A stretch of DNA of 64,000 bases. Origin: Hydrogenovibrio sp. GTDB lineage: Bacteria > Pseudomonadota > Gammaproteobacteria > Thiomicrospirales > Thiomicrospiraceae. The notes under the pieces are model-generated. The model made no database searches, had not been told where the DNA came from, and worked only from the letters and a program-made list of their open reading frames with translations. Location of the stretch: contig WFMZ01000056.1 in NCBI GenBank assembly GCA_015484555.1, positions 1 through 64,000 on the forward strand. Reading direction: 5' to 3'. Positions 19,315 through 64,000 of the stretch are shown piece by piece (position 1 is the stretch's first letter; each line of letters begins with the position of its first letter). A program made the position numbers and the translations under genes.

Positions 19315-20760
19315 TTAGTGGTTACGTCTTTTAGCTTGGGTTTTCTTTTTATTTTTACGTTTTAAAAAAGCATTTGATGCTTGGCTTTCTGATTGTCCAC
19401 GACGGTGGGTAAAATTAGATTTTTTAGTTTCAAACGGGTTAACGCTGGTTTTATATTCAATGAAGACAGGTGTTCCAATCCATTTAAAGGATTTACGGAA
19501 GAAGTTCATCAAATAACGCGTATAAGATTTTGCTAACTTATCCACTTTGTTACCGTGAATAATCACTCTTGGAGGGTTAAGCCCCCCTAAGTGGGCATAG
19601 CGCAACTTCACACGGCGACCGTTGATTAAAGGAGGCTGATGATCTAAGACGGCTTGTTCTAGCACACGGTTAAGATCAGAGGTCGAGACCTTCTTCATCA
19701 CGGCACTGTAAACAACCTGTACTGATTGAAATAAATCACCCACACCAGAGCCATGTAAGGCTGAAATCAAGTGCTTTTTGGCATACTCAACAAACAGTAA
19801 TTTACATTCTAGCTCGTGCTTAATTTTACTACGCTGCTCTTCGCTAAGGTTGTCCCATTTATTAATGGCCAATACCATACCACGACCTGACTCTAAGGCC
19901 AGACCAAGCAGAGTTAAATCTTGATCGGTAATCCCTTCTGACCCATCAATGACCAAAATAACCACGTTACAAGATTCCATCGCTTCAATGGCTTTAACAA
20001 TACTAAATTTTTCTATTTTTTCTTTAATATTTTTACGACGACGCACACCGGCGGTATCAATTAACGTATAGTCTTGCCCATCTCGTTCAAAAGGTACAAA
20101 GATACTGTCTCTCGTGGTGCCCGGCATATCATAGGCCACCACACGTTCTTCACCAATCATTCTATTGATTAGGGTCGATTTCCCCACGTTAGGTCGCCCA
20201 ATAACCGCGACTCTAATACCTGGATGATCATCTAACCCAAACTCTTCTTCATTTTCATCATACTCGGCACCAATATCACCCAGAATATGCTCGACAGTTT
20301 CAGCTACATTTTCACCATGTGCAGAAGAAATAACATAAGGTTGACCTAAGCCCATTTGAAAGAAATCTGCAGAAATAACATCTGCATCAAAGCCTTCTGC
20401 CTTATTAATTAATAAATAGATTGGCTTATCAAAGTTACGTAAGTAAGCGGCAATGGCTTCATCCGTAGGTAGTAAACCTGCACGGCCATCTACCATAAAT
20501 AAAACGGCATCGGCTTCTTGAATAGCTGAACGAACTTGACCCGCCATCAAAGGATCCACCCCCTCTTGCTCGCCGCTAAGTCCACCTGTGTCAACAACAA
20601 TAAAAGGGATATCACCTACTCGGCCACTTCCATATTGACGGTCACGAGTTAACCCAGGATAGTCAGCGACAATCGCATCTCGACTTCGTGTCAGACGATT
20701 AAATAAAGTAGACTTCCCCACATTGGGTCTGCCCACTAGGGCGATTACAGGTTTACTCAC
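19315..20760 (-). CDS. der: Ribosome-assembly GTPase Der (EngA)
   Basis: 481 residues with two tandem G domains, each with its own P-loop (GRPNVGKSTLFN near 10, GRPNVGKSTLIN near 190), DTGG/DTAG switch II motifs and NKxE/NKWD specificity motifs, then a KH-like C-terminal domain. It acts in 50S maturation. The start codon is GTG. The very basic C-terminal tail (KRKNKKKTQAKRR) is typical. It follows bamB as in E. coli. Confidence 0.97.
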   Translation of the reverse strand: MSKPVIALVGRPNVGKSTLFNRLTRSRDAIVADYPGLTRDRQYGSGRVGDIPFIVVDTGGLSGEQEGVDPLMAGQVRSAIQEADAVLFMVDGRAGLLPTDEAIAAYLRNFDKPIYLLINKAEGFDADVISADFFQMGLGQPYVISSAHGENVAETVEHILGDIGAEYDENEEEFGLDDHPGIRVAVIGRPNVGKSTLINRMIGEERVVAYDMPGTTRDSIFVPFERDGQDYTLIDTAGVRRRKNIKEKIEKFSIVKAIEAMESCNVVILVIDGSEGITDQDLTLLGLALESGRGMVLAINKWDNLSEEQRSKIKHELECKLLFVEYAKKHLISALHGSGVGDLFQSVQVVYSAVMKKVSTSDLNRVLEQAVLDHQPPLINGRRVKLRYAHLGGLNPPRVIIHGNKVDKLAKSYTRYLMNFFRKSFKWIGTPVFIEYKTSVNPFETKKSNFTHRRGQSESQASNAFLKRKNKKKTQAKRRNH

Positions 20761-20772
20761 GTATTATCTCTT

Positions 20773-22047
20773 TTAATTATCATTTTTTGGCTTCGGTGAT
20801 TTTGGTTGTTTGGCCAACTTAATATCCCCATTTGGATGGTTAAATTGATACCAGTCAGATATGACGACTTGGTAAACAGAAATATAACCTTGAATGTCTT
20901 GCGTATAGATTTCATTGCCGCTAGACCAAATACGAACAATTGTTTGACCAGGCATACCCTGTTCTACATGTTTCGCACGTGCTATTTCAGTACCATCAAC
21001 CTTATCTACCCAATGAAAATAACCAAGGCCATCTGCTAATAGTAATTGATTTTTACCGTAAAAGATTAAATCGACTAACCTACGATACTTATAATTCTCT
21101 TGCTTCCAAAGCATCGTGCCACTGTACAAGTCATACGCCATTAAAATATCATTTTCATTTACCATATATAGTGCTGTTTTATCGACTACAAAATTTCGGA
21201 ACCCAGATACATCTTTAGCCCAAAATAAGTTGCCATTTTCAGGATTTAAGGAAACCAATTTACCATGATAGCCTAATACATATAAGCGCCCATTTTCATA
21301 AATCAATTTAGCCTGAATATCAATTAAACGTTCTAAATCTGTACGACCATGTGGAATAAGAACTTGAGCCTGCCAAATCATTTCCCCAGTATTCACATCA
21401 AGGGCTTCAACCTGTCCATCCTCCCAACCCACATAAAGGACATTATTAACCAAGGTAACAGGGGCAATACCACGTAACGATAAACTCGGTAAAGAGTGCT
21501 CTGCTACCCAATTAATATGTCCTGTTGCTAAGTTGACAGAATAAAGCTTGCCATCGACTGTTCTAACAAAAGTAGTCGTATCATTTACAACTGCGCGACT
21601 AAGTACTTCGCTAGACAGTTGTGCTTCCCAGATTAGTGCGCCATTTTCCGGCTTAACCAGTAAAAGATGCCCTTTTGCTGTCCCAATAATTAAACCTTGC
21701 TTAGCTAAAGTAGGCCCTGAAACAATGGATTCTCCGAACTTACGTTGCCAAGAAACTTGATCTGTCCAACGAACATTACCCGCTTTCAATGCAGATGTTA
21801 ATACACCATCCGGGTTAGCAAAATAAAGGTGAGTTTTGCTTTCCGCAAAATATAGCCCTTCACTATCAGAATATTTCAAAGCATCAAATCGAAGTTGCCA
21901 AAGTAATTTAAGACTATAAGGCGAAGATAGTGCTACCAGTGGAGCAGGTATTTTCACAATTTTAGGGGACGTTGAGCAAGACTGCAACCCCGCCAATAAA
22001 GTGACCCATAAAAGTATTCGACTTAGTGTATTCAAATTTAAGCTCAT
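20773..22047 (-). CDS. bamB: Outer-membrane assembly lipoprotein BamB
   Basis: 424 residues. Lipoprotein signal with lipobox near LLAGLQSC (Cys24), then PQQ-like beta-propeller repeats (G-LIWEAQL, GHINWVAEH, GEMIWQAQV, GNLFWAKDV, GTMLWKQE). BamB is the propeller scaffold of the BAM complex. Gene order hisS-yfgM-bamB-der is the conserved one. bamC lies in this window too, bamA, bamD and bamE do not. Confidence 0.93.
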   Translation of the reverse strand: MSLNLNTLSRILLWVTLLAGLQSCSTSPKIVKIPAPLVALSSPYSLKLLWQLRFDALKYSDSEGLYFAESKTHLYFANPDGVLTSALKAGNVRWTDQVSWQRKFGESIVSGPTLAKQGLIIGTAKGHLLLVKPENGALIWEAQLSSEVLSRAVVNDTTTFVRTVDGKLYSVNLATGHINWVAEHSLPSLSLRGIAPVTLVNNVLYVGWEDGQVEALDVNTGEMIWQAQVLIPHGRTDLERLIDIQAKLIYENGRLYVLGYHGKLVSLNPENGNLFWAKDVSGFRNFVVDKTALYMVNENDILMAYDLYSGTMLWKQENYKYRRLVDLIFYGKNQLLLADGLGYFHWVDKVDGTEIARAKHVEQGMPGQTIVRIWSSGNEIYTQDIQGYISVYQVVISDWYQFNHPNGDIKLAKQPKSPKPKNDN

Positions 22048-22056
22048 CAGTTTATT

Positions 22057-22698
22057 TTACTTAGCCAAATCATCAAGCTGCAAACGTGCTAAATTCAACA
22101 AGTTAGGTGACGTTTCTTTATTATCAACCACCGCAGTTAATGCTTTAGTCGCCTCATCAAATTTCCCTAACTTTAAAGCAAGCATTGCTTTTGAATAGGT
22201 TACATTTGCCTGCTCAGCAGGCACTAATTTAGCTAAATTAATACCTGATAACAAACTACTTGCTTCATCATATTTAAGGGTATCAATTAAAATATTGACC
22301 ATTCTTAACTGAGCAACTAGTTTTAAAGAAGCATCCTTAGAATTATCTAAAACCCACTGCAGATGCACCAAAGCTTCTTCAGGCTTATGCTTTTGCATAC
22401 TATTTTTCGCCATTAACAAAGAAACACCAACCGAATAAGGACTATCTGGCTGTTCATTCATTAATTTTAAGCCTTCACGAGCAACATCACCAAAGCTACC
22501 TTGCGCTAAACGAATTTGCATCGTTTCAAAAATAGCAGATGCTGTTTCAGCTTTAACCTGCTGATTTTTCTGGTAATAAGTCCAACCAGACCACCCCAGT
22601 ACAATCACTAATAAACCGATTAAAACCTGACTACCATTCTTTTTCCACCAGTCTTTAATTGCGGCAACTTGCTCATCATCTGTTTCATAACGACTCAT
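22057..22698 (-). CDS. yfgM: YfgM-type ancillary SecYEG translocon protein
   Basis: 213 residues. A short cytoplasmic N-terminus (SRYETDDEQVAAIKDWWKK) precedes one membrane helix (VLIGLLVIVLGWSGWTYY, about 25-43) and a periplasmic TPR-like helical domain. In E. coli YfgM binds SecYEG and PpiD and contributes to periplasmic folding. It lies 9 bases before bamB and 18 after hisS, in the conserved block. Confidence 0.9.
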   Translation of the reverse strand: MSRYETDDEQVAAIKDWWKKNGSQVLIGLLVIVLGWSGWTYYQKNQQVKAETASAIFETMQIRLAQGSFGDVAREGLKLMNEQPDSPYSVGVSLLMAKNSMQKHKPEEALVHLQWVLDNSKDASLKLVAQLRMVNILIDTLKYDEASSLLSGINLAKLVPAEQANVTYSKAMLALKLGKFDEATKALTAVVDNKETSPNLLNLARLQLDDLAK

Positions 22699-22716
22699 CT
22701 CAACTTCTCTCTTCTC

Positions 22717-24003
22717 TTATAAATCTAATTTAGGGTTAAAAATTTCTGCTACTTTATCATGTAGCGCTGCCCAGGAAACAACTTCCTGCGGCTTATCGAC
22801 TCTTAAATACTTAATCGTAACTTGCTGATTGGCCACTTCGTCTTCTGCCAATACCAAGGCAATGTCTGCACCTGACTTATCGGCTTTTTTAAACTGACTT
22901 TTAAAGCTACCGCCCCCGCAGTTCATTTGTACTTTTAAGCCAGAAAAACTATCTCTCATTTGTTCTGCAATGACCATGCCCGGACGCAATGCTGACTCAC
23001 CCACCATCACCATAAAGATATTGGCCATTTTATTAGCTTCAACCAATGACTTATCAATCAACAATGACATTAACCTTTCTAGTCCCATTGCAAAACCACT
23101 GGCAGGAACAGGCTTTCCACCAATTTGCTCAACTAAACCATCATAACGCCCACCGGCACATACCGTACCTTGTGCGCCTAGCTCGGTGGTGACCCACTCA
23201 AATACCGTTTTATTATAGTAATCTAAACCACGCACTAAATTGCTATTCACAACATAGGCAATACCCGCGTCATCAAGGTAGGATTTCAATAAATTAAAGT
23301 GCATTAAAGATTCTTCGTCTAAGTGATCAATTAACTTCGGAGCGCCTTCTACAATCTCTTTTAACGCAGGATTTTTGGTATCTAAAATTCTAAGCGGATT
23401 ACTGTCTAAACGGCGTAGACTATCTTCATCTAAAGAAGACTTATGCTCTGTTAAGTAAGCAACCAAAATTACTCTGTAGGCTTGGCGTGCTTCTGCGCTG
23501 CCCAGTGAGTTAATTTGAAGCTCTAAATTATCTAGCCCCAATTTTTCCCACAAGCGAGCTGTCAGCATAATAAGCTCTGCATCAATATCGGCATCGGCCA
23601 AACCAAATACTTCCACACCAAATTGGTTAAACTGACGGTAACGCCCTTTTTGAGGACGTTCATGACGAAACATGGGGCCAGTGTAATATAGCTTCTGGAT
23701 TTGATTATGTGATAAACCATTTTGAATAATCGCGCGAACACAGCCTGCTGTTCCTTCTGGACGAAGGGTTAGGCTGTCACCATTACGGTCTTCAAAAGTA
23801 TACATTTCTTTTTCAACAATATCGGTTACTTCACCAATTGAGCGCTTAAATAGTTCTGTTTTCTCAACAATCGGCAAGCGAATAGACTGGTAGCTATACT
23901 GGTTCAACACAGACTCAGCGGTGCTGACAATATAATCTAGTACGGCTGATTCTTGACCATACCAATCATTCATTCCACGAATAGAGGCAATTTGTTTTGA
24001 CAT
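22717..24003 (-). CDS. hisS: Histidyl-tRNA synthetase
   Basis: Class II synthetase, 428 residues (E. coli 424). Motif 2 ([18 protein letters not shown]) and the histidine-binding loop [11 protein letters not shown] plus the HisA signature GGRYDGL are visible; anticodon-binding domain from about 330. Located in the rlmN-hisS-yfgM-bamB-der string, but the rodZ and ispG genes that normally lie between rlmN and hisS are absent. Confidence 0.97.
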
Positions 24004-24028
24004 TTTTAGACTACCCTTAAACTTTTAA

Positions 24029-25177
24029 TCAAGATTTTGTTTTAATTTCAATGGCTTTCAAGGTACGCTTGGTTCTATCAGATACCTTACCCGCAAGCTG
24101 ACCACAGGCAGCATCAATATCATCTCCACGAGTTCGTCTTACCGTGCATTTTAAACCCGCTTGAACCAACTTATCTTGAAAGCGATGAATAGCATTATTT
24201 GAAGAACGCACATAGTCAACACCTTCGAAAGAGTTGAAGGGGATTAAATTAATCTTACAAGGCAATTCACCTAATAACCCAATCAATTCTTCTGCGTGCT
24301 CAACACGATCGTTTATTTTATCTAACATCACATATTCAATTGTGACATGCTTCTTACTATGGCCATCTTTAACATAGTCATACAAGGCTGGCATTAGTTT
24401 CTCAAGTGGATACTTCTGGTTAATGGGCACTAACTCATCACGCAGTGCATTGTTAGGCGCATGTAAGGAAATCGCCAAACTAACGTCTAAAGCTTCTTTA
24501 ATTTTTTCAATCGCAGGCACAACGCCCGCGGTACTAATTGTAACGCGACGCTTCGATAAACCATAAGCATTGTCATCCATTAGTATTCTGGCTGCCGGAA
24601 AAGTATGGGTAACGTTCAATAAAGGCTCACCCATCCCCATAAACACGACGTTTGAAATAATACGTTCTTCTTTTGGCTTGCAACCTAACGCTTTATTAGC
24701 AACCCACATTTGAGCAATAATTTCCCAGTTTTCTAAATTCCGGTTGAAACCCTGCTTACCTGTCGCACAAAAACTACAATCTAACGCACAACCTACTTGA
24801 GAAGAAATACACAAGGTACCACGATTTTTTTCTGGAATAAATACCGCTTCTACTGAGTTTTTTTGATCCACTTCTAGCAACCATTTAATGGTGCCGTCTT
24901 CAGACTTTTGCTCTGCAATAATTTTAGGGGTACGAATAATCGCGGTTTGCTTTAATTTTTCTCGTAGCGCTTTGCTCAAGTTAGTCATTTCATCAAAATC
25001 ACTAACACCAAATTGATGAATCCACTTCATGATTTGAGTAGAACGAAAAGGTTTTTCGCCAATGCTAGTAAAAAACTTAGCCAACCCTGCTTTATCCAAC
25101 CCTAATAAATCAGTTAGGCCTTCATAGACAATACTATTGTCTTCTAAAATATTTTCATCTTCAAATTTCAAAGGCAC
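24029..25177 (-). CDS. rlmN: 23S rRNA/tRNA adenine C2-methyltransferase RlmN
   Basis: Radical-SAM enzyme methylating A2503 of 23S rRNA and A37 of some tRNAs. 382 residues. The radical-SAM cluster is [15 protein letters not shown] (CxxxCxxC), followed by GMGEPLLN; the second catalytic Cys lies near the C-terminus in DIDAACGQL. The start is read as GTG at 25177, 3 bases after the ndk stop, so coupling with ndk is likely. Confidence 0.96.
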
Positions 25178-25180
25178 GGA

Positions 25181-25603
25181 TTATCGCTCACAAATTTCAG
25201 ATTCGCTAAAAAAGTATTTAATTTCACGTTTTGCACTGACCACAGAATCAGAACCATGTACCGAATTTTTTTGCATAGAAACAGCAAATAACTTACGTAA
25301 AGTACCTTCTTCAGCCTCTTCAGGGTTAGTTGCGCCCATCACTTTTCGATTTAATTCAACCGCATTTTCACCCATTAAAACCTGCACAACAATCGGCCCA
25401 GCGGTCATGTTGTCAACTAGAGTTGGGTAAAAAGGCTTTCCTTTATGCTCCGCATAAAACCCACCAGCTTGTTCTGCTGTTAAGAGAATCATTTTAGAAG
25501 CCACTACTTTTAAGCCGTTAGCTTCTAGCTTAGACAGAATAGAACCAATTAAATTTCTACGTACAGCATCCGGTTTAATGATCGAAAATGTTCTTTGCTG
25601 CAT
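25181..25603 (-). CDS. ndk: Nucleoside diphosphate kinase
   Basis: 140 residues. Catalytic phospho-His116 in NSVHGSDS, plus the family start [11 protein letters not shown]. It balances NTP pools by ping-pong phosphate transfer. It is directly followed by rlmN, the order conserved in gammaproteobacteria. Confidence 0.97.
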
Positions 25604-25729
25604 GAAAGGTGCCTAAATATTTTTTATAATTTGCTATTTTAACAAGAGAAGCAGTTTTTTGCCGAACTAATTCGCTCTTTAAGAGTAGCTTTTTACATCA
25701 AATTCAAAAGAATAAATCGTTAAAAATAA

Positions 25730-25758
25730 AAAAGCCCCAGTTAAATACTGAGGCTTTT
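25730..25758 (-). terminator. Terminator downstream of iscA
   Basis: AAAAGCCCCAG and CTGAGGCTTTT pair into an 11-base stem with a G-U on the minus strand, ending in a T-run. It lies 46 bases after the iscA stop and separates iscR-iscA from ndk. Confidence 0.8.
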
Positions 25759-25803
25759 ACAAAAATAAAGCATTCGAACGCCACTTTATTTGCTTAAACA
25801 AGG

Positions 25804-26130
25804 TTAAACAGAGAAGGACTCACCGCAACCACAAGCATCTTTCACCAAAGGATTGTTAAATTCAAACCCTTCATTTAACAAGCCATCTTTAACATAATCT
25901 AGTTCCATGCCATCAATTTGAGATAAACACTTTTTAGGCACGACCACTTTAATACCGTAAGATTCAAACACCTCATCGGCATCGGTAATCTCATCGGCAT
26001 AATCAACAACATAAGAAAACCCTGCACAACCACTTACCTTAGTTGAAAGCTTCAGACCAACACCAGACCCACGCTTTGCTAACATGGTTTCGACTCTATT
26101 TGCTGCTGTTTCCGTTAAAGTTATACTCAT
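25804..26130 (-). CDS. iscA: A-type Fe-S carrier IscA
   Basis: 108 residues, the E. coli IscA length (107), with the three conserved cysteines Cys35 (SGCAGF), Cys100 and Cys102 (DACGCGES). It carries iron or Fe-S clusters to apo-proteins. An AGGAG site precedes the ATG. It directly follows iscR; iscS and iscU, which normally stand between them, are absent. ErpA is an alternative name, but the near-identical C-terminus (NPLVKDACGCGESF) favours IscA. Confidence 0.88.
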   Translation of the reverse strand: MSITLTETAANRVETMLAKRGSGVGLKLSTKVSGCAGFSYVVDYADEITDADEVFESYGIKVVVPKKCLSQIDGMELDYVKDGLLNEGFEFNNPLVKDACGCGESFSV

Positions 26131-26149
26131 ATCATCTCCTAGCTCTTTA

Positions 26150-26178
26150 GTAAAATGCGTCTACAAGGCGCATTTTAC
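26150..26178 (-). promoter_or_regulatory. Intercistronic stem-loop between iscR and iscA
   Basis: A perfect 10-pair stem (GTAAAATGCG / CGCATTTTAC) with a 9-base loop. It overlaps the iscR stop codon and lacks a T-run, so it looks like an mRNA-stability or processing element rather than a terminator. Confidence 0.6.
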
Positions 26179-26603
26179 ATAAAAGTTACTTCTTTAATAT
26201 TCGATTTTCTATCAATCACTTGCTGCAAGCTAACGCCACTTAAAAAACGTTCAATCGTTTCACTTAGGTCGTGCCATAAAGCATGGGATAAACAAGGCGA
26301 CCCGCCTTTACAGTTTTCTTTACCCCTACATTTTCTAGGCTCAAGCGTTTCATTAACCGCACTAATAATATCATTAATCGAAATATCAGAGGCATCACGG
26401 CTTAAGCGATAACCACCGCCAGGCCCCCTGGCACTCAATACCAACCCTGACTTTTTTAACTTTGCAAAAATCTGCTCTAAATAAGAAAGTGAAATCTCTT
26501 GTCTATCAGAAATCATCGATAAGGTAATTGGCCCTTCAGACTGCTTAATAGCAATATCTAGCATCGCAATAACCGCATAGCGACCTTTTGAAGTTAACTT
26601 CAT
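26175..26603 (-). CDS. iscR: Fe-S cluster-sensing regulator IscR
   Basis: 142-residue Rrf2-family winged-helix regulator. Cluster ligands Cys92, Cys98, Cys104 and His107 (KCRGKENCKGGSPCLSH) are at E. coli positions. The recognition helix region ISLSYLEQIFAKLKKSGL is intact. Holo-IscR normally represses isc genes; here the only linked isc gene is iscA, and an IscR-type site lies at sufB in this window. cysE lies upstream on the same strand. Confidence 0.95.
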   Translation of the reverse strand: MKLTSKGRYAVIAMLDIAIKQSEGPITLSMISDRQEISLSYLEQIFAKLKKSGLVLSARGPGGGYRLSRDASDISINDIISAVNETLEPRKCRGKENCKGGSPCLSHALWHDLSETIERFLSGVSLQQVIDRKSNIKEVTFM

Positions 26604-26692
26604 TTAATACCAACCTTTTTTCAAACAAATATTGTCTTATAACTACTTTTCTATCTAGCAATAATACAATAACCTAGCAAACAACTCAAGAA

Positions 26693-27466
26693 TTACTTAA
26701 TATGAGCCATTTGCTCTGGATCATTAGGCTCTAACACGACGTCTTCCAAGCTAGTCATTTTAACACTGGTATCTTTACAGCCTAATTCTTGAACCGCGGC
26801 GTTCAATTTTGCTAACTGTTCATCCTGCCCTTGAATATGATCGAGTAAGCTATAAATCGCCTTCTCAACAGGGTCTGTTGCATTAGCTGTGACACCGTAG
26901 GCATCAAACCCAATTTTATCCGCCATTTCTTGGCATTTTGAACTGACCTCTTTATCTGGTTCTATCACTCTACCCGGAACACCTACCACCGTTCTATTAC
27001 ATACCACTGACTTTAACACCACCGCATTCGAGCCAATTCGTACATCATGCCCAATATCAATTGGCCCAAGCACTTTCGCACCCGCCCCCACCACAACACG
27101 GTTGCCTAATGTTGGGTGGCGCTTACCTTCACTAGTATTGACGCCACCCAATGTCACGCCATGGTACAAGGTGCAATCATCACCAATTTCTGCTGTTTCC
27201 CCTATCACTACACCCATACCGTGGTCAATAAAAAAACGGTCACCAATAGTTGCTGCGGGGTGAATTTCAACCCCCGTAAACCAACGTGCTAACCCTGAAA
27301 TAAAGCGAGCCAACCACTTCAACCCCTTTCCCCACAACCAATGGGTAAATCGGTAGAACAAAATAGCATGTAAGCCAGGGTAAGTTGTTAATACCTCAAA
27401 GGTATTTCTAGCCGCGGGGTCTCGTTCAAAAACAGATTTTATATCTGACTTAATTCGTTTAAACAT
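26693..27466 (-). CDS. cysE: Serine O-acetyltransferase
   Basis: Makes O-acetylserine for cysteine synthesis. About 257 residues. Left-handed beta-helix hexapeptides ([38 protein letters not shown]) with catalytic His in DHGMG and in YHGVTLGG. Start set at the ATG at 27466; a GTG directly before it abuts the trmJ stop and is an alternative. The order trmJ-cysE-iscR matches Pseudomonas. Confidence 0.94.
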
Positions 27467-27469
27467 CAC

Positions 27470-28309
27470 TTAACTCTTTTCTTTGGGTTTAACATTATTT
27501 GAATCAACTTCATTTTCAGCCGACTTACCCATTAAAGCCAGTAATTTCTTACTTTGCCTTTGAGAAGCGGTTAAAATGCCGCGCAGAATATCCACTTCTT
27601 TAATATCTAACTGCGTACGATTAAACAAGCGACGCATTCGCCTCATAAATTGAGCATTTTTTGCCACATCTAAAAAACCGATGTCCTGCAACATTTGAAA
27701 TAAATGACCATAAAACCCTTCCAACTGTTCTGCAGAAGCCAAAGGGTGCTTATAGCCTTTCAAAATTTTCGATTCTACTTCCGCTTGAACAATATCAGTC
27801 GCCATTAAACATTCGTAAGCAAACACTTGAACCGCCGCCGCAATATTTAATGAACTATAAGCAGGATTCGTGGGAATACTCGCCAAATAATGACATTGAT
27901 CCATTTCCACATTACTCAAACCAGAATCTTCTCTGCCAAATAAAATCGCAACCGTTGCAGCTTCATCTTGCGTAGTTTCCATAATTAAGTTGGCCGTCTC
28001 TCTGACATCTAGCTGTGGCCAAGATACTCTACGTAGCCTAGCACTTGCACCCACCACCAACTGGCAATCTTTAACCGCCTCTTCCAAAGTCGGTACCACT
28101 TGTGCCGAACTTAAAATATCTGCCGCACTTGAAGCCCTTGCAGAGGCTTCTTGGCTCGGAAAATCTTTAGGATTAACCAAAACCAGCTGTGATAAACCCA
28201 TGTTTTTCATTGCCCTTGCCACCGCGCCAATATTGCCTGGATGAGAGGTTTCAATCATGACTATTTTAATTTTTTGCAATTTAGAGTGGTTTCTATAATC
28301 TTTAAGCAT
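27470..28309 (-). CDS. trmJ: tRNA (cytidine/uridine-2'-O) methyltransferase TrmJ
   Basis: SPOUT-class methyltransferase acting on Nm32 of tRNA. 279 residues. N-terminal IKIVMIETSHPGNIGAVARAMKNMG, and the SAM-knot motifs ILFGREDSGLSN and IPTNPAYSSLNIAAAVQVFAYE (family motifs 2 and 3). C-terminal extension rich in helices (MRRMRRLFNR), typical of TrmJ versus TrmL. Divergent from suhB with a 110-base gap, as in E. coli. Confidence 0.95.
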   Translation of the reverse strand: MLKDYRNHSKLQKIKIVMIETSHPGNIGAVARAMKNMGLSQLVLVNPKDFPSQEASARASSAADILSSAQVVPTLEEAVKDCQLVVGASARLRRVSWPQLDVRETANLIMETTQDEAATVAILFGREDSGLSNVEMDQCHYLASIPTNPAYSSLNIAAAVQVFAYECLMATDIVQAEVESKILKGYKHPLASAEQLEGFYGHLFQMLQDIGFLDVAKNAQFMRRMRRLFNRTQLDIKEVDILRGILTASQRQSKKLLALMGKSAENEVDSNNVKPKEKS

Positions 28310-28419
28310 CAGTTTTCGCTATAATTACCTTATTAATTTTTATATTCTACCCAAAACAAGCCCTTTAGGTTTAATTTCTAAAGTCAAATGCTGGGTGAAC
28401 ACCTACTGGAAACCACTAA

Positions 28420-29220
28420 ATGAACCCTATTTTAAACGTCGCTATCATTGCCGCTAAAGAAGCTGGCGAATACATCAAAGAACAGCGAGACAATCTTGCG
28501 CGCGTTGAAATTGAAGAAAAAGGCCTAAATGACTTTGTTAGTTATGTTGATCTTCAATCTGAAAAAATGATTATGCTTGCCATCCGCAAGTATTATCCAG
28601 ACCACAACATTACCGCCGAAGAATCTGGCAAACATTCAACACCTTCTAAGTTCGAATGGATTATTGATCCATTAGATGGCACCACTAACTTTTTGCACCA
28701 AATCCCTCACTTTGCCATTTCTATTGCTGTGAAAGAGAATGGTAAGTTAATGCATGGCGTAGTTTACGACCCTATAAAAGATGAAATGTTTTCAGCTTCT
28801 CGAGGCGATGGCGCACGTTTAAATAATTTTAAAATACGTGTTTCTGACCAAAAAGCTCTTAAAAACTCTGTATTAGCTACCGGCTTCCCTTACACAAACT
28901 TTGACTACATTGACCCTTACATGGATAGTTTAAAAAGCTTTATACTAAAAACAGCAGGTATTCGTCGTGCAGGCTCAGCGGCTTTAGACCTAGCTTATGT
29001 AGCTTGTGGCCGTGTAGATGGTTACTGGGAATTTAACTTGAAAGAATGGGATATTGCCGCAGGTGCACTTATCGTGATGGAAGCTGGCGGACTGTCTACC
29101 GACTTTGCCGGTGGAGATAACTTCCTGGAATCTGGAAACATTGTAGCGGCTAGCCCTAAAATGCTACAAGCCATGGCGAAAGTAATTGGCCAAACCGTTC
29201 CAAAAGAACTTAGAAACTAA
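28420..29220 (+). CDS. suhB: Inositol-1-monophosphatase / NusA-associated SuhB
   Basis: 266 residues. Metal-binding motifs are EES (residues near 68), WIIDPLDGTTNF and WDIAAGALIVMEAGG. The family dephosphorylates inositol monophosphate; E. coli SuhB also joins the rRNA antitermination complex. ATG start at 28420, opposite trmJ. Confidence 0.95.
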   Translation: MNPILNVAIIAAKEAGEYIKEQRDNLARVEIEEKGLNDFVSYVDLQSEKMIMLAIRKYYPDHNITAEESGKHSTPSKFEWIIDPLDGTTNFLHQIPHFAISIAVKENGKLMHGVVYDPIKDEMFSASRGDGARLNNFKIRVSDQKALKNSVLATGFPYTNFDYIDPYMDSLKSFILKTAGIRRAGSAALDLAYVACGRVDGYWEFNLKEWDIAAGALIVMEAGGLSTDFAGGDNFLESGNIVAASPKMLQAMAKVIGQTVPKELRN

Positions 29221-55908: not shown

Positions 55909-57129
55909 TCACAGCAACATTTCTTTGGCTTCTTGAATAGCTTTGACCAAACAATCAATATCGGCTAAATTATTATAGACCCCAAAAGAGGCTCGCATTG
56001 TAGAAGGCACCTTAAACTTTTGCATCACCGGCATCGCACAATGATGACTCGCACGCAAGGCAATCCCATCTTGATCCATTAAGGTTGCCATATCATGCGG
56101 ATGCACACCTTCAATCGCAAAAGAGACAACCCCTCCTTTGTGCTTAGCCTGACCGATAATACGCAGGCCATCAATGGTTAATAGCTGTTCGGTTGCATAC
56201 TTGAGCAAACCATCTTCATATTCGGCTATTTCAGCTAAGCCAATACTTTGAACAAAATCAATCGCTGCACCTAAACCTATAGCACCAGAGATATTAGGCG
56301 TACCCGCTTCAAACTTATAAGGTAAAACATTAAATTTGGTTTGCTCAAAGGTAACTGAATAAATCATATCACCCCCACCTTGGTAAGGCGGCATTTCTTC
56401 CAACAAGGCTTGCTTACCAAACAATACCCCTATACCGGTTGGGCCATACATTTTGTGTGCTGAAAAAGCATAAAAATCACAGCCAATATCTTGAACATCA
56501 ACCGCTAAATGCGGCACAGATTGCGCGCCATCAATCAATACTTTCGCGCCTACAGCATGGGCTAAGGCGGTCATTTCTTTAACAGGGTTAATTGTGCCTA
56601 GTGCATTTGAAACATGCACAATAGATACAAACTTAGTTTTGCTCGATAACATACTTTTAAAGTCATCTAAACAAATTTCACCCAAATCATTAATGCGCAG
56701 AATACTTAAGATAATACCTAATTCATCACGCAAAAACTGCCAGGGCACAATATTAGAATGATGCTCCATTTCAGTAATGATAACTTCATCACCTGGCTTT
56801 AGGTTTTGTTTTCCCCAACTACTGGCGACCAAGTTAATAGACTCTGTTGTGCCGGCTGTAAAAATAATTTCTTGAGTGGCTGAAGCATTCAAAAATTGGC
56901 GCGTTTTTTTACGTGCACCTTCAAATAAATCGGTCGCTCGTTCACTTAAACCATAAACGCCACGATGTACATTGGCATTTTCAGAGGTGTAATAACGAGT
57001 AATGGCATCAATCACAGATTGAGGTTTTTGAGAGGTCGCACCATTGTCCAAATAGACCAAAGGCTGACCATTTTCAGTCTGCTGCAAAATAGGGAATTGT
57101 GCTCGAATATCAGTGAAATTTATACTCAT
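55909..57129 (-). CDS. sufS: Cysteine desulfurase SufS
   Basis: PLP enzyme supplying sulfur for Fe-S assembly. 406 residues. PLP Lys in AFSAHKMYGPTG, catalytic Cys in SHHCAMPVM. Group II desulfurase type. Last gene of sufBCDS; no sufE or sufU follows. Confidence 0.96.
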   Translation of the reverse strand: MSINFTDIRAQFPILQQTENGQPLVYLDNGATSQKPQSVIDAITRYYTSENANVHRGVYGLSERATDLFEGARKKTRQFLNASATQEIIFTAGTTESINLVASSWGKQNLKPGDEVIITEMEHHSNIVPWQFLRDELGIILSILRINDLGEICLDDFKSMLSSKTKFVSIVHVSNALGTINPVKEMTALAHAVGAKVLIDGAQSVPHLAVDVQDIGCDFYAFSAHKMYGPTGIGVLFGKQALLEEMPPYQGGGDMIYSVTFEQTKFNVLPYKFEAGTPNISGAIGLGAAIDFVQSIGLAEIAEYEDGLLKYATEQLLTIDGLRIIGQAKHKGGVVSFAIEGVHPHDMATLMDQDGIALRASHHCAMPVMQKFKVPSTMRASFGVYNNLADIDCLVKAIQEAKEMLL

Positions 57130-57144
57130 AAAAACCTTTAAATT

Positions 57145-58449
57145 TTAACGGGCTACATCAGCCAAAGAAGCTAATTTATTATTTACCTGCAGGGTTAACC
57201 ATTTTTTAATATCAGCCGAACCAATTAGGTCTAAAGGTTCTAACAAGAAAGCTTGAGTAATTAAATTTAGTGCATCGGCTTTCCTAATACCCCTTGCTTG
57301 GCAGTAGAACAGCTGATTTTCATCTATTTGACCAGAAGCGCAACCATGCGCGCACTTCACATCATCGGCATAAATTTCTAACTGAGGTTTGGTGTCCATC
57401 TTGGCTTCATTAGACAACAACAGATTTTTATTTTCCATTAAACCATTGGTTTTTTGAGCATCTTCTGCCACATAAATCATGCCGTTAAACACACCTCGTG
57501 CTTGCTGATAAAGGACAAACTTATGCAACTGCTGACTATTGCCATGCGGTTGATTATGTTGCGTGATGGTTCTTGAATCACAAACTTGCTTGCCTTCCAC
57601 TAATACAACAGAGTTCTGACTGGTTTCGCAGTATTCTGCATTCATTTCCACTACATTCATATGACGAGAAACCAAAGCCCCTAAGCTGATATAAAAACTC
57701 TGAAAGTCAGACTGCTTACCTTGGGTTACCCCTTGGTTTTTAAAGTAAAAGCTCTGCCCGTTCAAGTTTTGCAACACATACTGTTTAACCTGCGCCTGCT
57801 CTTTTAATTCAAACTGCTGGTAGCCATTTGAAAACTGGACAGAATTATCTAAGGTAATATGCTGCTGAATAAAGCTACACTGTGCTTGCTCATTGACCAC
57901 AACCTTCATACCCAACGACTCTACGCCAGGCTGAGTTGATACTTGAGCAATCAAAATAGGAGTTTCCACCCAAGCTTTTGGTTGAACTTGAACAGAAAGT
58001 GTTTGAGTCGATAGCATGGCATACAAGGCTTGAAAGGCATCTTGTGGCTGAAAGCTTAAAGGAGCAGATTGCAACGTAATTTCACAACCTTTAGGGGCGT
58101 TCGATAAAGTATCAGACAAGGTTTCTGAAAAAACACCATCTACAAAAACAAGTTTAAAACAATCAAAGCTAGGCAAGTGGTCTTTCAGCTGATTAGCTAA
58201 TACCACCCCTGGCGATTTTTGGCTTTGCAAGGCATTCATCCAACCGCTCAAAGGCGTATACTGCCAGTCTTCATGCCTTCTGGTTGGCAAGCCTTGTTCA
58301 CTCAAATAAGCTTGTGCTGTTTTACGAATACGCTGAACATCTGCAGGCTCTTGCGCCATTAACTCGTTAGATACACCAAGGTAATGTTCAATGGCTTTTA
58401 AAGCAATAGGACTTTGCTTAGGTGCAGGCTTGTTAATTTTTGTCGTCAT
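57145..58449 (-). CDS. sufD: Fe-S scaffold component SufD
   Basis: 434 residues, beta-helix scaffold partner of SufB. Family marks: LPTRRHEDWQYTPLSG near 55 and TKPQLEIYADDVKCAHG near 355. A dispersed-motif copy (58203-58220) sits in the variable stretch after the N-terminal helix and encodes part of QSQKSPGVVLA; total length between conserved YTPL and LVFVDG is the same as in E. coli SufD within about one residue. Confidence 0.94.
   Translation of the reverse strand: MTTKINKPAPKQSPIALKAIEHYLGVSNELMAQEPADVQRIRKTAQAYLSEQGLPTRRHEDWQYTPLSGWMNALQSQKSPGVVLANQLKDHLPSFDCFKLVFVDGVFSETLSDTLSNAPKGCEITLQSAPLSFQPQDAFQALYAMLSTQTLSVQVQPKAWVETPILIAQVSTQPGVESLGMKVVVNEQAQCSFIQQHITLDNSVQFSNGYQQFELKEQAQVKQYVLQNLNGQSFYFKNQGVTQGKQSDFQSFYISLGALVSRHMNVVEMNAEYCETSQNSVVLVEGKQVCDSRTITQHNQPHGNSQQLHKFVLYQQARGVFNGMIYVAEDAQKTNGLMENKNLLLSNEAKMDTKPQLEIYADDVKCAHGCASGQIDENQLFYCQARGIRKADALNLITQAFLLEPLDLIGSADIKKWLTLQVNNKLASLADVAR
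58203..58220 (+). repeat. Dispersed motif, copy G (inside sufD)
   Basis: Perfect 18-base core followed by GGCTTT as in copies B and E, on the strand opposite to sufD. Confidence 0.86.
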
Positions 58450-58467: not shown

Positions 58468-59244
58468 TTAAATGTTGGCTTGTGCATGAAATGCTTGGAC
58501 GATTTGATCGTAACCATTCTCTTCAAGCTCATGAACCAATTCAAAACCACCTGTTTTAATGATTTGACCATCATATAAAACATGGACAAAATCTGGCTTA
58601 ATGTAATCCAATAAACGTTGGTAGTGGGTTACGACAATAAAACTACGCTCATCACTTCGCAACGAGTTCACACCATTAGCAACGACTTTCATCGCGTCAA
58701 TATCTAAGCCTGAATCGGTTTCATCTAAAATACATAGCTTAGGCTCTAACAATGCCATTTGAAAAATGTCGTTACGTTTCTTTTCACCACCTGAAAAGCC
58801 AACATTAACAGAGCGTTCTAGTAAATCTTTACGCATGCCCATTAATTCGATCTTCTCTTGTGCAAACTCGTCAAAGTCAAACATGTCCAACGCAGGCTGA
58901 CCACGCTCTTCACGAATAGCATTAACAGAAGTTTGTAAAAATAGCTTGTTGCTAACACCAGGGATTTCTACCGGATATTGAAAGGCTAAAAACACCCCTT
59001 TACGCGCACGATCTTCTGCATCAATATCTAATAGGTCTTCGCCATCAAACTGAATAGACCCTTCGGTCACTTCATAGTCTTCACGACCCGCTAGCACACT
59101 AGAAAGTGTACTTTTTCCGGCACCATTTGGCCCCATAATGGCATGCACTTCACCCGCTTTAATTTGCAAGTTTAAGCCTTTAAGTATTTGCTTACTTTCA
59201 TCTTCAGCCACTTGGGCTTTTAAATTTTGTACATCTAATAACAT
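58468..59244 (-). CDS. sufC: SUF ATPase SufC
   Basis: 258-residue ABC-type ATPase energising the SufBCD scaffold. Walker A GPNGAGKST, signature FSGGEKKRN, Walker B CILDETDSGLD. Confidence 0.97.
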   Translation of the reverse strand: MLLDVQNLKAQVAEDESKQILKGLNLQIKAGEVHAIMGPNGAGKSTLSSVLAGREDYEVTEGSIQFDGEDLLDIDAEDRARKGVFLAFQYPVEIPGVSNKLFLQTSVNAIREERGQPALDMFDFDEFAQEKIELMGMRKDLLERSVNVGFSGGEKKRNDIFQMALLEPKLCILDETDSGLDIDAMKVVANGVNSLRSDERSFIVVTHYQRLLDYIKPDFVHVLYDGQIIKTGGFELVHELEENGYDQIVQAFHAQANI

Positions 59245-59281: not shown

Positions 59282-60766
59282 TTATCCTACCGAGCCTTCT
59301 AAACTAATGGCCAACAATTCTTCGGCCTCTTGTGCAAATTCTAGTGGTAATTCTTTAAATACGTCTTTACAAAAACCATTCACAATCATTGAAATGGCAT
59401 CTTGCTCACTAATGCCTCGCTGCTTGCAATAAAACAACTGGTCTTCACCAATTCGTGATGTTGTGGCTTCATGCTCCATCTTGGCAGTGGCATTTTCTAC
59501 TTCAATATAAGGAAAAGTATGCGCACCACATTTATCGCCAATCAACATCGAATCACACTGTGTAAAGTTACGCGCATTGTCCGCTGAAGGTAAAATTTTA
59601 ACCAAACCACGGTAAGTGTTTTGTGACTTACCGGCGGACAACCCTTTAGAAATAATCGTACTACTGGTATTCTTGCCAATATGAATCATTTTTGTACCCG
59701 TATCGGCTTGCTGACGCTGGTTCGTTAGGGCAACAGAATAAAACTCTCCAATGGAATAGTCACCTTTTAAAATGCAGGTTGGGTACTTCCAGGTAATGGC
59801 AGAACCCGTTTCGGCTTGTGTCCAAGATAACTTGGCATAATCACCTTCGCAAATACCACGCTTGGTGACAAAGTTTAAAATTCCCCCTTCAGAGTTTTCA
59901 TCACCAGGGTACCAATTTTGTACGGTTGAATATTTTACTTCTGCTTTTTCATGAACCACCACTTCGACTACCGCGGCATGCAGTTGATAAGCATCTCTTG
60001 CGGGTGCAGAACACCCCTCTAAATAACTTACATAACTACCTTTTTCGGCAATCAAAATAGTCCTTTCAAACTGACCTGTTTTGGCTTCGTTAATACGAAA
60101 GTAGGTTGATAATTCTATCGGGCAACGTACATTTTCAGGAATATAAACAAAGGTTCCATCGGAAGCAACGGCTGAATTTAAGGTAGCAAAGAAGTTGTCA
60201 TGATAAGGCACAACCGTTCCCAGATACTTTTGAACCAATTCAGGATGCTCTTGAACCGCTTCTGAAAAAGAACAGAAGATAATACCCAATGCCTCTAAGT
60301 CAGCACGTTTAGTAGTTGAAACCGAAACCGAGTCAAAAATAGCATCTACGGCAATATTAGTGTTTTCATCATCATTACCTACAACAGGCACACCTAAGGC
60401 TGCAAAAGTTTTGGCTATTTCATCATCTTGCTCTGAAATTTCAGCGGCTTTTTCTTCAGGTGTAGCAGTGTCGCAAGCTGAACATTCAGGGGCAGAGTAA
60501 TAACTATAGTCCTGGTAGTCTAAGGGCTGATACTCTAGATGTGCCCAGTGCGGCTCCTTCATGGTTAACCAGTGATGGTAAGCTTTTAAACGAAAATCTA
60601 GCATCCATTGCGGCTCATTCTTTTTCGCTGAAATAGCGCGCACAACCTCTTCGTTTAATCCTCTTGCAAAGGTTTCAACGTCGGTAGTAGTAATAAACCC
60701 TTCTTTATAGCTAGATTTACTGCCAATTAAATCATCAATTTCTTGGTACTGAGTCGGTCCGGACAT
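59282..60766 (-). CDS. sufB: Fe-S scaffold component SufB
   Basis: 494 residues (E. coli 495). C-terminal beta-helix with [34 protein letters not shown] (the conserved glutamate/cysteine core) and [12 protein letters not shown]. First gene of sufBCDS, preceded by a well-formed promoter overlapped by an IscR-like site. No sufA; IscA elsewhere may serve. Confidence 0.97.
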
Positions 60767-60789: not shown

Positions 60790-60828
60790 ATATCCTAGTA
60801 TTCTAGTCGGTTATTCAGTTTTTGTCTA
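60790..60828 (-). promoter_or_regulatory. sufB promoter with overlapping IscR type-1-like site
   Basis: Minus-strand -35 TAGACA (60823-60828), 17-base spacer, -10 TAGAAT (60800-60805), each five of six consensus. The 25-base stretch 60790-60814, arms ATAACCGACT and ACTAGGATAT, matches 20 of 25 positions of the E. coli IscR type-1 pattern as I recall it and covers the -10. Holo-IscR would then repress sufB. Confidence 0.6.
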
Positions 60829-60929: not shown

Positions 60930-61613
60930 TTAAAGCTGTGCAGCTTGTACAATTTGTTTAATAAATACCTTATCTAAGTTTCGTCCCCAAAATGCAACTT
61001 GATGACTATCTAGCTCTGCACCATAGGTTTCAATCTTAGCTAAAGTACCTTCTATTTGAATGGGATTTTGATATTCTGTTGTCTGCATAGAGCCTTTAAT
61101 TCGCCAAAATACCATACCTAAATTTTTCTGACAAGCATCTAAAGCGGCTAACAAATGTTCTAATTGAACTGTTTGTAATGAAAAAACAGCATATTGAAGT
61201 GGTTCAGAGACGGGTAACCGGCAAGCAGTCAAAGTAAGTTTCTGCCACTTATCGAGAGAGAGTCGTGTTTTAAACTCACCATAAAATAAACGATAAACAG
61301 GCTTATTAATAGCACACTGTACAACCCATTTTTGCCAAAATGATTGAGCATCTAACTCAGCCTGCTCCGTAAAAGAAAAGATAATAAAGCTAGCTTGTGA
61401 AGCAATAGAGGCCAATAAATCTAACCCCTCGGCATCAGCCAGTATAAACCTAACATCTACCACCAAACCCAATGTATTTAAAACCATCTGTGGTTGAATA
61501 ACGGGTAAATTTTGAATAACGACCTTGCCGCCACCCTGCTTTAGTAAAGCCGTTTTGGCGGTCTTTTTACCGCTACCAGGTAAGCCTACTAAGGTAATAT
61601 CAAAGGCATTCAT
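60930..61613 (-). CDS. Degenerate COG0523 (CobW-type) GTPase-like protein linked to znuA
   Basis: 227 residues from ATG 61613, which overlaps the znuA stop as ATGA. N-terminal P-loop GLPGSGKKT has Lys where Ser/Thr should follow the invariant GK. The expected NKxD motif after the second hydrophobic strand is replaced by SFTEQAEL, and the CxCC metal motif is absent. The C-terminus resembles the CobW_C domain (WRIKGSM, PIQIEGT, VAFWGRNLD). COG0523 proteins are metal insertases/chaperones, many under zinc control, so zinc is the likely context. Enzymatic activity is doubtful; it may bind metal or partner only. Confidence 0.6.
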   Translation of the reverse strand: MNAFDITLVGLPGSGKKTAKTALLKQGGGKVVIQNLPVIQPQMVLNTLGLVVDVRFILADAEGLDLLASIASQASFIIFSFTEQAELDAQSFWQKWVVQCAINKPVYRLFYGEFKTRLSLDKWQKLTLTACRLPVSEPLQYAVFSLQTVQLEHLLAALDACQKNLGMVFWRIKGSMQTTEYQNPIQIEGTLAKIETYGAELDSHQVAFWGRNLDKVFIKQIVQAAQL

Positions 61614-62521
61614 CTTTGTAAACAACTCAAATATTGTTGCGTTAACTGGGTCATTACTTCAACAGTGGTTTGGTTTGCATTACCCATAGGGTTTAAAACA
61701 ACAACCTTTAATGTTTCCTCTTCATTAGGTGCAATGTTATCAATCAGCTTAGGAGAAGTATCGACGGTGCTAAAAATACACTGTATATTTTCTATTGCCA
61801 CTTGTTTACGCAAAGCCAGTATTCTCTGAATGCTTGTCCCCGCTTCATTAACTTGTACACTACCCATATCTCGTAAGCCATACCGATGTTCAAAATAATG
61901 AAAACCAGGGTGTACCGTTAAAAATGGGGTATGCCTTACCTTCAGCAAAGCTTTTTGGCTGGCCTTATCTACCTGAGTCAACTGTTGCAATATCATTGCA
62001 AGCTGACTTGAAAAGTGTATATTTGGCTGACTAGCTACGGCTTTTACCAAAGCTTTTACATTATCAACATCCCACCATATATGGGGATCAACCCCTTTAT
62101 CATGGTGGTGAGCTTCAGCCTGTTCCTCTTCATGTTCATGTACTTTTTTAGACGAGATATTTAATAAATCGACTGCTTTTAATAAATGAATATTGGGCTG
62201 TTTTGACCACACTAAGTGTGCTGTTTGACTACGTTGCTTCTGATTGTTAAATGCTTTTTGCGCCCAGCCGTCTACTCCCAAACCCACGCTAATTAACAAA
62301 TCAGCTTGCTGAATACTAACCAACATAGATGGTTTTAACGTAAAGTGATGCGGAGATGCTTGGCTAGGTAACAAAACAATAACGTGATCATTTTCACCTA
62401 ACAAAGGTTTAATGGCCGAAGCAATGGGCGGAATTGATACCACAATAGTAGAGGCTTGTGCCGGAAATGGCATAGCGAAACCTAAAAGCAACCCTAAAAT
62501 AATAATCTTAAATTTTTTCAA
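61610..62521 (-). CDS. znuA: Zinc-binding periplasmic protein ZnuA
   Basis: 303 residues. Signal peptide (about 1-23), cluster A-I solute-binding fold. First ligand His in SPHHFTLKPS, then the typical histidine-rich loop (HEHEEEQAEAHHHDKG, about 130-145) preceding DPHIWWD, and later ligand in TVHPGFHYF. The frame opens with TTG, 5 bases after AAGGA; no ATG is better placed. Divergent from znuCB. Confidence 0.92.
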   Translation of the reverse strand: MKKFKIIILGLLLGFAMPFPAQASTIVVSIPPIASAIKPLLGENDHVIVLLPSQASPHHFTLKPSMLVSIQQADLLISVGLGVDGWAQKAFNNQKQRSQTAHLVWSKQPNIHLLKAVDLLNISSKKVHEHEEEQAEAHHHDKGVDPHIWWDVDNVKALVKAVASQPNIHFSSQLAMILQQLTQVDKASQKALLKVRHTPFLTVHPGFHYFEHRYGLRDMGSVQVNEAGTSIQRILALRKQVAIENIQCIFSTVDTSPKLIDNIAPNEEETLKVVVLNPMGNANQTTVEVMTQLTQQYLSCLQR

Positions 62522-62651
62522 AATATTCCTTATTGGATAAATATATCTACAAATAGCTTAAAGAAAAACTAATTTTCCTTAGTCGATAGATTTTAAAATA
62601 AAAAACGATCAAGTTAACTATTTTTCTCATTCTTAACATACAATATTTAAC

Positions 62652-63500
62652 ATGAAAATAAACTCAAACCCTAAAATAAGGTCATTTTTAATTAAAGCAG
62701 ATCATATTCATCATTTTTATGATGAAAAAGAAGTGCTATCTAATGTTTCTTTAACCATTAGAGCTAAAGAAATTGTGACTTTAATTGGCCCTAATGGGGC
62801 AGGGAAATCGACTTTATTAAAAATATTGCTAGGACTTATCCCCGCGTCCAAAGGAAAGGTGAGTCGACAAGCTAATTTAAAAATTGGCTTTATGCCTCAA
62901 AAGGTGCAACTTGACTCTTCTTTACCCTTAACCGTAGAAGGATTTTTAAATTTAGCCAATTCACAGCAACCTCTATTAAGTCGCTTAAAATCCTTACTCC
63001 GCACTGAAGCAACGCCTTTTCAAACTCATGTTATTCAGGCCATGACTTTACTAAAAATTGAAGACCTGGCCAAACAACAAATTAAAAATCTTTCCGGCGG
63101 AGAGTTTCAACGTGTGCTCCTGGCACGAGCTATTGTCTCTAAGCCCGACCTACTGGTTTTAGATGAACCCGTTCAAGGTGTCGATTTACAAGGCCAAACC
63201 GAACTTTACTATTTAATAAACCAAATTAAAGATGAACTGGGATGTGGCATTTTAATGGTTAGCCACGACCTTCATGTGGTTATGAAAAGCACCAACCGAG
63301 TATTGTGTTTAAACCAACATTTATGTTGTTCTGGCCACCCTAGTCAGCTTTCAGAAGACCCTAGTTTTCAAAAAATATTTGGCAATGAGTTTGAAGAGCT
63401 TGCTGTCTATGAACACCACCACAACCCAACACAGTGTGACCATACACATGGTCAACACAGTCAAACGGCCGAACAGAGTCACGGGCATCATCATGATTGA
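62652..63500 (+). CDS. znuC: Zinc ABC transporter ATPase ZnuC
   Basis: 282 residues. Walker A GPNGAGKST, signature LSGGEFQRVLLARA, Walker B LLVLDEP. A histidine-rich C-terminal tail (YEHHHNP, HTHGQHSQ, SHGHHHD) may hold zinc. Its stop lies inside the start region of znuB. No convincing Zur operator was found in the 130 bases between znuA and znuC. Confidence 0.95.
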   Translation: MKINSNPKIRSFLIKADHIHHFYDEKEVLSNVSLTIRAKEIVTLIGPNGAGKSTLLKILLGLIPASKGKVSRQANLKIGFMPQKVQLDSSLPLTVEGFLNLANSQQPLLSRLKSLLRTEATPFQTHVIQAMTLLKIEDLAKQQIKNLSGGEFQRVLLARAIVSKPDLLVLDEPVQGVDLQGQTELYYLINQIKDELGCGILMVSHDLHVVMKSTNRVLCLNQHLCCSGHPSQLSEDPSFQKIFGNEFEELAVYEHHHNPTQCDHTHGQHSQTAEQSHGHHHD

Positions 63501-64000
63501 TTTAGTGTTAAATCCACCCAATTTCTTAATCATGGCTTTAATAGGCGGTTTATTGGTAGCGCTTATTTCTGCCCCTCTTGGCACCTTTATGGTTTGGCAA
63601 AAACAATCTTACTTTGGCGCCACCCTTGCACACTCTGCCTTGCTGGGCGTTAGCTTGGGCATGATTATGCAGATAGACTTAACCCTAAGTATCTTAGTCA
63701 CGTCAGTCATTATTGGTGTTGCTCTTTTCTATTTAGCTCAAAAAAGTAGCTTATCTTCTGACACATTATTAGGTATCTTAGCCCATAGTAGTTTGGCACT
63801 GGGCTTAGTATTACTTAGCTTTCAACCCAATATTCAGCTAGACCTAATGCGTTATTTATTTGGGGATATTCTAAGCATCAATTTGGATGACATCCAATTA
63901 CTCTCTGCCCTGTTAGTGCTGACACTATTATTTTTTGCTAAATACTGGCAATCACTTTTAAACATTACTTTAAATATAGAATTGGCAGCGGTAGAAGGCA
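63493..64000 (+). CDS. znuB: Zinc ABC transporter membrane subunit ZnuB (N-terminal part)
   Basis: Partial, cut by the window end after 169 codons. Starts at ATG 63493, 8 bases before the end of znuC, indicating coupling. Begins MIDLVLNPPNFLIMALIGG; carries SAPLGTFMVWQKQSYFGATLAHSALLG (the family EAA-like stretch), then several hydrophobic helices. ABC-3 family permease. Confidence 0.93.
   Translation, partial: MIDLVLNPPNFLIMALIGGLLVALISAPLGTFMVWQKQSYFGATLAHSALLGVSLGMIMQIDLTLSILVTSVIIGVALFYLAQKSSLSSDTLLGILAHSSLALGLVLLSFQPNIQLDLMRYLFGDILSINLDDIQLLSALLVLTLLFFAKYWQSLLNITLNIELAAVEG

Follow-up and report, generated by a model that had tools for sequence, protein, structure and literature searches.

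The suf Operon and the Fe-S Assembly Pathway

How is Fe-S cluster supply controlled in a Hydrogenovibrio genome where searches for assembly machinery turned up SUF alone? The question is raised by the suf operon in a 64-kb window of this genome (the whole stretch of DNA that was analysed), where a candidate IscR operator falls on the sufB promoter. The operon lies on the minus strand and comprises sufB (59282..60766; NCBIfam SufB, 858.9 bits), sufC (58468..59244; NCBIfam SufC, 419.3 bits), sufD (57145..58449; TIGR01981, 227.9 bits) and sufS (55909..57129; TIGR01979, 592.1 bits), each over its cut-off, and SufE is present in the genome. No member of the scaffold family PF01592 (IscU/NifU/SufU) occurs in this genome or in 34 family relatives (0 of 35), and the same search detected it in 12 of 14 control genomes. 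A second cysteine desulfurase of the IscS kind was sought and rejected, the only other strong PF00266 match (L176) being, to judge by its sequence, a probable SerC. Across the 35 family genomes, SUF is thus the sole Fe-S assembly pathway found by sequence search, which goes further than the first-pass annotation, where it had been put forward as the main pathway.

The region upstream of sufB (60930-63999) holds a small GTPase-like gene and the genes of a zinc-type ABC transporter (binding protein, ATPase and permease). The GTPase-like gene and sufB share a strand, and no terminator was detected in the interval between them, so that read-through could add expression escaping the operator.

A Type-1-like Site on the sufB -10 Box

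The minus strand 5′ of the sufB start codon (60766) reads CTAGACAAAAACTGAATAACCGACTAGAATACTAGGATATTAAAAATTAG. It holds a predicted promoter with the -35 box TAGACA (60823..60828, minus strand; family form TRGACA, at a fixed distance) separated by 17 bp from the -10 box TAGAAT (60800..60805, minus strand; family form TARAAT). This TAGACA-17-TAGAAT arrangement (60828-60800) is the top promoter match in a 2.5-kb scan; the promoter scan alone was dropped as evidence, its yield being at chance level (8 found vs. 6.8 expected). The predicted operator, ATAACCGACTAGAATACTAGGATAT (60790..60814, minus strand), matches the type-1 consensus ATASYYGACTRWWWYAGTCRRSTAT, as quoted in PMC6599224, at 20 of 25 positions. 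As expected of a type-1 site, it overlaps the core promoter of an Fe-S gene, the whole -10 box being contained in its 25 bp. The first-pass annotation had claimed that the promoter and a 25-base site with 20 matches coincide, and coordinates and scan confirm this; the span that it marked (60790-60828) corresponds to the type-1-like site plus the -35 box.

The sufB site is the best type-1 match in the 64-kb window and the sole position there that scores 20/25. The expected number of sites of this quality over the usable intergenic DNA is about 0.0016, and among 1000 Markov-shuffled intergenic sequences 4 score as high, placing the chance of such a match in the intergenic stretch at ~0.002-0.004. 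On the same scale, the verified type-1 sites of Escherichia coli and Pseudomonas aeruginosa span 14 to 24, a range that includes the sufB operator. No tandem second type-1 site was seen at sufB. Two other kinds of site were searched for upstream of sufB and rejected: the best match to the type-2 IscR pattern (AWARCCCYTSnGTTTGMnGKKKTKWA) is 18/26, which is at the level of shuffled sequence (P 0.49; best matches across the family, 16-20), and no Fur box above chance was found.

Conservation of the Dyad across the Family

Evidence stronger than the match score comes from conservation. The sufB upstream regions of 30 genomes (Thiomicrorhabdus/Thiomicrospira relatives) were compared, and two named relatives, Thiomicrorhabdus sp. 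ZW0627 and a Thiomicrospira cyclica MAG, were also sampled. Nearly all regions show a TRGACA -35 box, 17 bases and then a dyad centred on the -10 box TARAAT. The type-1 match is at least 17 in all 30 family regions and at least 18 in 29 of them, a value seen in 3.1% of 807 control pieces (150 bp each) taken from these loci; at least 20 is attained by 17 of the 30 sufB promoters vs. none of the 807 control pieces. In two genomes (L111 and L112) the site at sufB is a perfect 25/25 type-1 sequence, ATAGTTGACTAAAATAGTCAACTAT.

The conserved columns begin 13 bases ahead of the dyad centre and end 14 bases beyond it. Information per column amounts to 1.12 bits in the arms outside the -10 box, 1.38 in the -10 box, 1.16 in the -35 box and 0.15-0.18 in the flanks; lining up by the consensus inflates the conservation of the site, and the -35 box played no part in the lining up. 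A control with permuted consensus sequences (n = 300) gave a maximum of 0.64, against 1.18 observed for the site block. Arm positions are paired about the type-1 centre in 68% of cases, and in 24-40% when the centre is slid by 1-3 bases. Matching changes on both sides of the dyad occur in several lineages (e.g., TT/TT in three loci), although this covariation is modest, with 18 cells changed on both sides, a number equalled by 9 of 500 shuffles. Two relatives (L096 and L102, of G023 and G016) depart from this layout: their TARAAT has decayed and a TATAAT stands immediately 5′ of the dyad, so that the -10 box seems to have moved by ~14 bases without loss of the operator. That a type-1-like site sits on the sufB -10 box is thereby borne out family-wide, and the presence of this conserved candidate operator of the IscR type at the promoter is no accident.

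IscR and the Stripped ISC Locus

The genome has one candidate regulator for this site. The gene iscR (26175..26603, minus strand) encodes the sole Rrf2 protein over cut-off in the genome, no second regulator of this family being found over cut-off in an assembly that is 94% complete. Its best NCBIfam match, and the top-scoring of all models, is TIGR02010, at 196.8 bits, 11 short of the curated cut-off of 207.55. The protein aligns without gaps to the E. coli IscR in the PDB and retains all four cluster ligands (Cys92, Cys98, Cys104 and His107, E. coli numbering) as well as the DNA-reading residues S40, Y41, E43, Q44 and R59 (listed in PMC11475020).

The gene adjoins one for an iscA-type carrier (25804..26130, minus strand), for which the best-matching NCBIfam IscA models fall slightly under cut-off and TIGR00049 over it. 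The surrounding order (19315-29220) is suhB, trmJ, cysE, iscR, iscA, ndk, rlmN, hisS, yfgM (assigned by position), bamB and der. This is the gene order of the E. coli ISC neighbourhood, here without iscS, iscU, hscB, hscA, fdx and iscX, and its core, trmJ-cysE-iscR-iscA-ndk-rlmN, recurs in almost every family locus that was checked. The distance between iscR and iscU is ~1.5-3 kb in outgroups that have an IscU of the ISC type, and in this genome 34 kb separate iscR from suf. From the stripped locus and the outgroup arrangement, IscR appears to have been left behind at the former ISC locus and to act now on suf. The retention of IscR in a family without ISC machinery contrasts with the statement in a review that IscR is conserved among species making an ISC machinery (PMC8593673).

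A matrix trained on the sufB sites of other genomes, with this genome excluded, was applied to the 64-kb window. It places the sufB site first (36.2) and the iscR promoter second (26668-26694; 13.0), and the third place scores 5.5. The iscR site, ATTCTTGAGTTGTTTGCTAGGTTAT (26669..26693, minus strand), is a weaker type-1-like sequence (17/25) that overlaps TTGAGT-17-TATTAT, and its register is kept in most family relatives. The IscR regulon was searched by model only. A second conserved target predicted in this way is selO/ydiU, which is preceded by type-1-like sites in about ten genomes of the family, this one included (L148 and L191, G000:C65:63531-63556; also L180, L181, L184, L186, L192, L193, L195, L198 and L201). 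The ydiU gene of E. coli is also a member of the IscR regulon, activated through a type-2 site (PMC8561392), in contrast to the type-1-like sites of the family. Some of the selO/ydiU sites are shared with a divergent peroxiredoxin (bcp-like) gene. In one relative, a near-perfect dyad, AATACCCGACTAAAATAATCGGGTATT (L167, G007:C13:10477-10503), lies between ycgL-like and iron superoxide dismutase genes and is possibly a further IscR target, judging from its sequence. Weaker model matches inside genes of relatives (e.g., L161, in a CobW-like gene) were taken as chance.

Proposed Mechanism and Competing Readings

The site is highly likely to be the IscR operator of sufBCDS, at which [2Fe-2S]-IscR would repress transcription by occluding the -10 box. 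When clusters suffice, [2Fe-2S]-IscR would bind the dyad, which covers roughly -21 to +4 relative to the predicted start, and the bound dimer would exclude sigma-70 RNA polymerase from the -10 box. Once clusters have been consumed or damaged, IscR would lose its own and leave, freeing the sufB promoter, and iscR itself would be under a similar, weaker site. Since SUF is the sole machinery found, such an operator would exert direct negative feedback on cluster supply. All type-1 promoters known so far are repressed (PMC8561392). We infer from the site and the regulator not only IscR binding at sufB and repression but also the cluster dependence and the start site, and the cluster requirement is the weakest step of the mechanism. 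By analogy with E. coli and P. aeruginosa, the form acting at sufB is probably the cluster-bound one, and the regulatory logic first proposed for suf, repression by the cluster-bound protein when clusters suffice, is very probably correct.

The half-sites bear directly on this weakest step. Both halves of the sufB operator are of the CC kind (CCGAC and CCTAG), with no TT half, so that the asymmetric TTGAC/CCGAC arrangement of E. coli type-1 sites is absent; CC/CC is found in 6 of 27 distinct family sites. The type-1 reading of the first-pass annotation stands as regards the 20/25 match, is supported by the conservation in the family and requires a caveat that it had not raised: with CC/CC half-sites the operator is better called type-1-like than strict E. 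coli type-1. In E. coli, type-1 sites carry TTGAC in one half, and E43 of the apo protein accepts CC and rejects TT. IscR could accordingly bind the sufB operator in both apo and holo forms, in which case suf repression would follow the amount of IscR and not its cluster occupancy. The CC in both half-sites, here and in the 6 family sites, and the conservation in this IscR of E43, a residue favouring CC over TT, would suit such a reading. We nevertheless consider it improbable, because neither CCGAC nor CCTAG fits the type-2 half-site CCxYA, because in some relatives a perfect type-1 site with TT/TT halves occupies this position, and because the tpx site of P. aeruginosa is CC/CC and yet needs cluster-ligating IscR in vivo.

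A more speculative extension, which we hold doubtful although less so than binding of both forms, is that ISC was lost, IscR stayed at the old ISC locus and took over SUF through type-1-shaped operators whose half-sites vary from TT/TT to CC/CC between genera, and the cluster requirement was perhaps tuned or lost in some lineages. If true, the family would offer a natural series in which the discrimination of cluster states by IscR could be tested.

Two further readings also compete with cluster-bound IscR as the repressor at sufB. A regulator other than IscR might read the dyad, and in other Gammaproteobacteria a different Rrf2 protein (25-30% identical to IscR) does adjoin sufB together with a related palindrome; this is very unlikely here, given that the genome (94% complete) has no other Rrf2 protein over cut-off, that two family genomes have 25/25 matches to the IscR consensus and that the matrix built on sufB sites picks out the iscR promoter as well. 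That the promoter alone is conserved, the type-1 match being a by-product of an A+T-rich -10 region, gains something from the core ACTARAAT, which includes the -10 hexamer, itself conserved, and is scarcely credible when arm columns well outside the -10 box match the -35 box in conservation, the symmetry peaks exactly at the type-1 centre, the -10 box of L096 and L102 appears to have moved while the dyad stayed, and the same motif recurs at the iscR and selO/ydiU promoters.

Relation to Known Systems

The predicted design resembles that of the E. coli iscRSUA promoter, where 25-bp dyads at the promoter mediate repression by [2Fe-2S]-IscR and feedback on cluster supply. On the same scale, the two best type-1 matches 5′ of iscR in E. 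coli reach 24 and 22, compared with 20 here. The systems differ in target and layout. In E. coli the type-1 target is ISC, and apo-IscR activates suf through a type-2 site, whereas here there is one site, on the suf -10 box, with CC/CC in place of CC/TT. The verified type-1 sites of P. aeruginosa (isc, nfuA and tpx; PMC6599224) score 14-20/25, and the tpx site shares its CC/CC half-sites with the sufB operator. Holo-IscR is thought to occlude the promoter in P. aeruginosa (PMC6599224). That organism, unlike the present one, has ISC only, and its sites are placed at the -35 box, 5′ of it or in the spacer between -35 and -10, and not on the -10 box (PMC6599224).

IscR-type control over a sole or joint SUF machinery, as inferred here, has parallels in Xanthomonas, Caulobacter and Rhodobacter. 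Xanthomonas campestris has SUF only and a characterised type-1 site, according to a citation in PMC6599224. In Caulobacter (PMC11475020) and Rhodobacter sphaeroides (PMC4618611), IscR represses isc-suf when iron or clusters suffice. In both of the latter iscR heads a joint isc-suf operon, in contrast to the distant iscR and stripped ISC locus described above. The Caulobacter site overlaps the -35 region rather than the -10 box, and the Rhodobacter IscR has one cysteine and a different box, as opposed to the full ligand set and type-1-like site found here.

Two gammaproteobacterial MAGs in which no adjacent Rrf2 gene was detected (L031 and L060) have 23/25 sites before sufB, and an iscR-suf operon (L019) has a 20/25 site before iscR, which extends the arrangement beyond this family. 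At six other loci (L048, L051, L062, L064, L071 and L080) a palindrome near GGACTAAAATAGTCC, with TAAAAT in its middle, lies 5′ of another Rrf2 gene that precedes sufB; by their sequence, these perhaps represent the same design under another regulator. The arrangement is no exception, since repression by IscR has been described for SUF-containing operons elsewhere among bacteria.

Its meaning lies in the wiring of suf in a sulphur-oxidising family that lacks ISC. A type-1-like site on the core promoter, with the repression that it implies, reverses the E. coli textbook case of activation through a type-2 site. The family-wide loss of ISC with the regulator kept adds to its interest, and the CC/TT variation at one orthologous operator provides material on how IscR separates type-1 from type-2 DNA.
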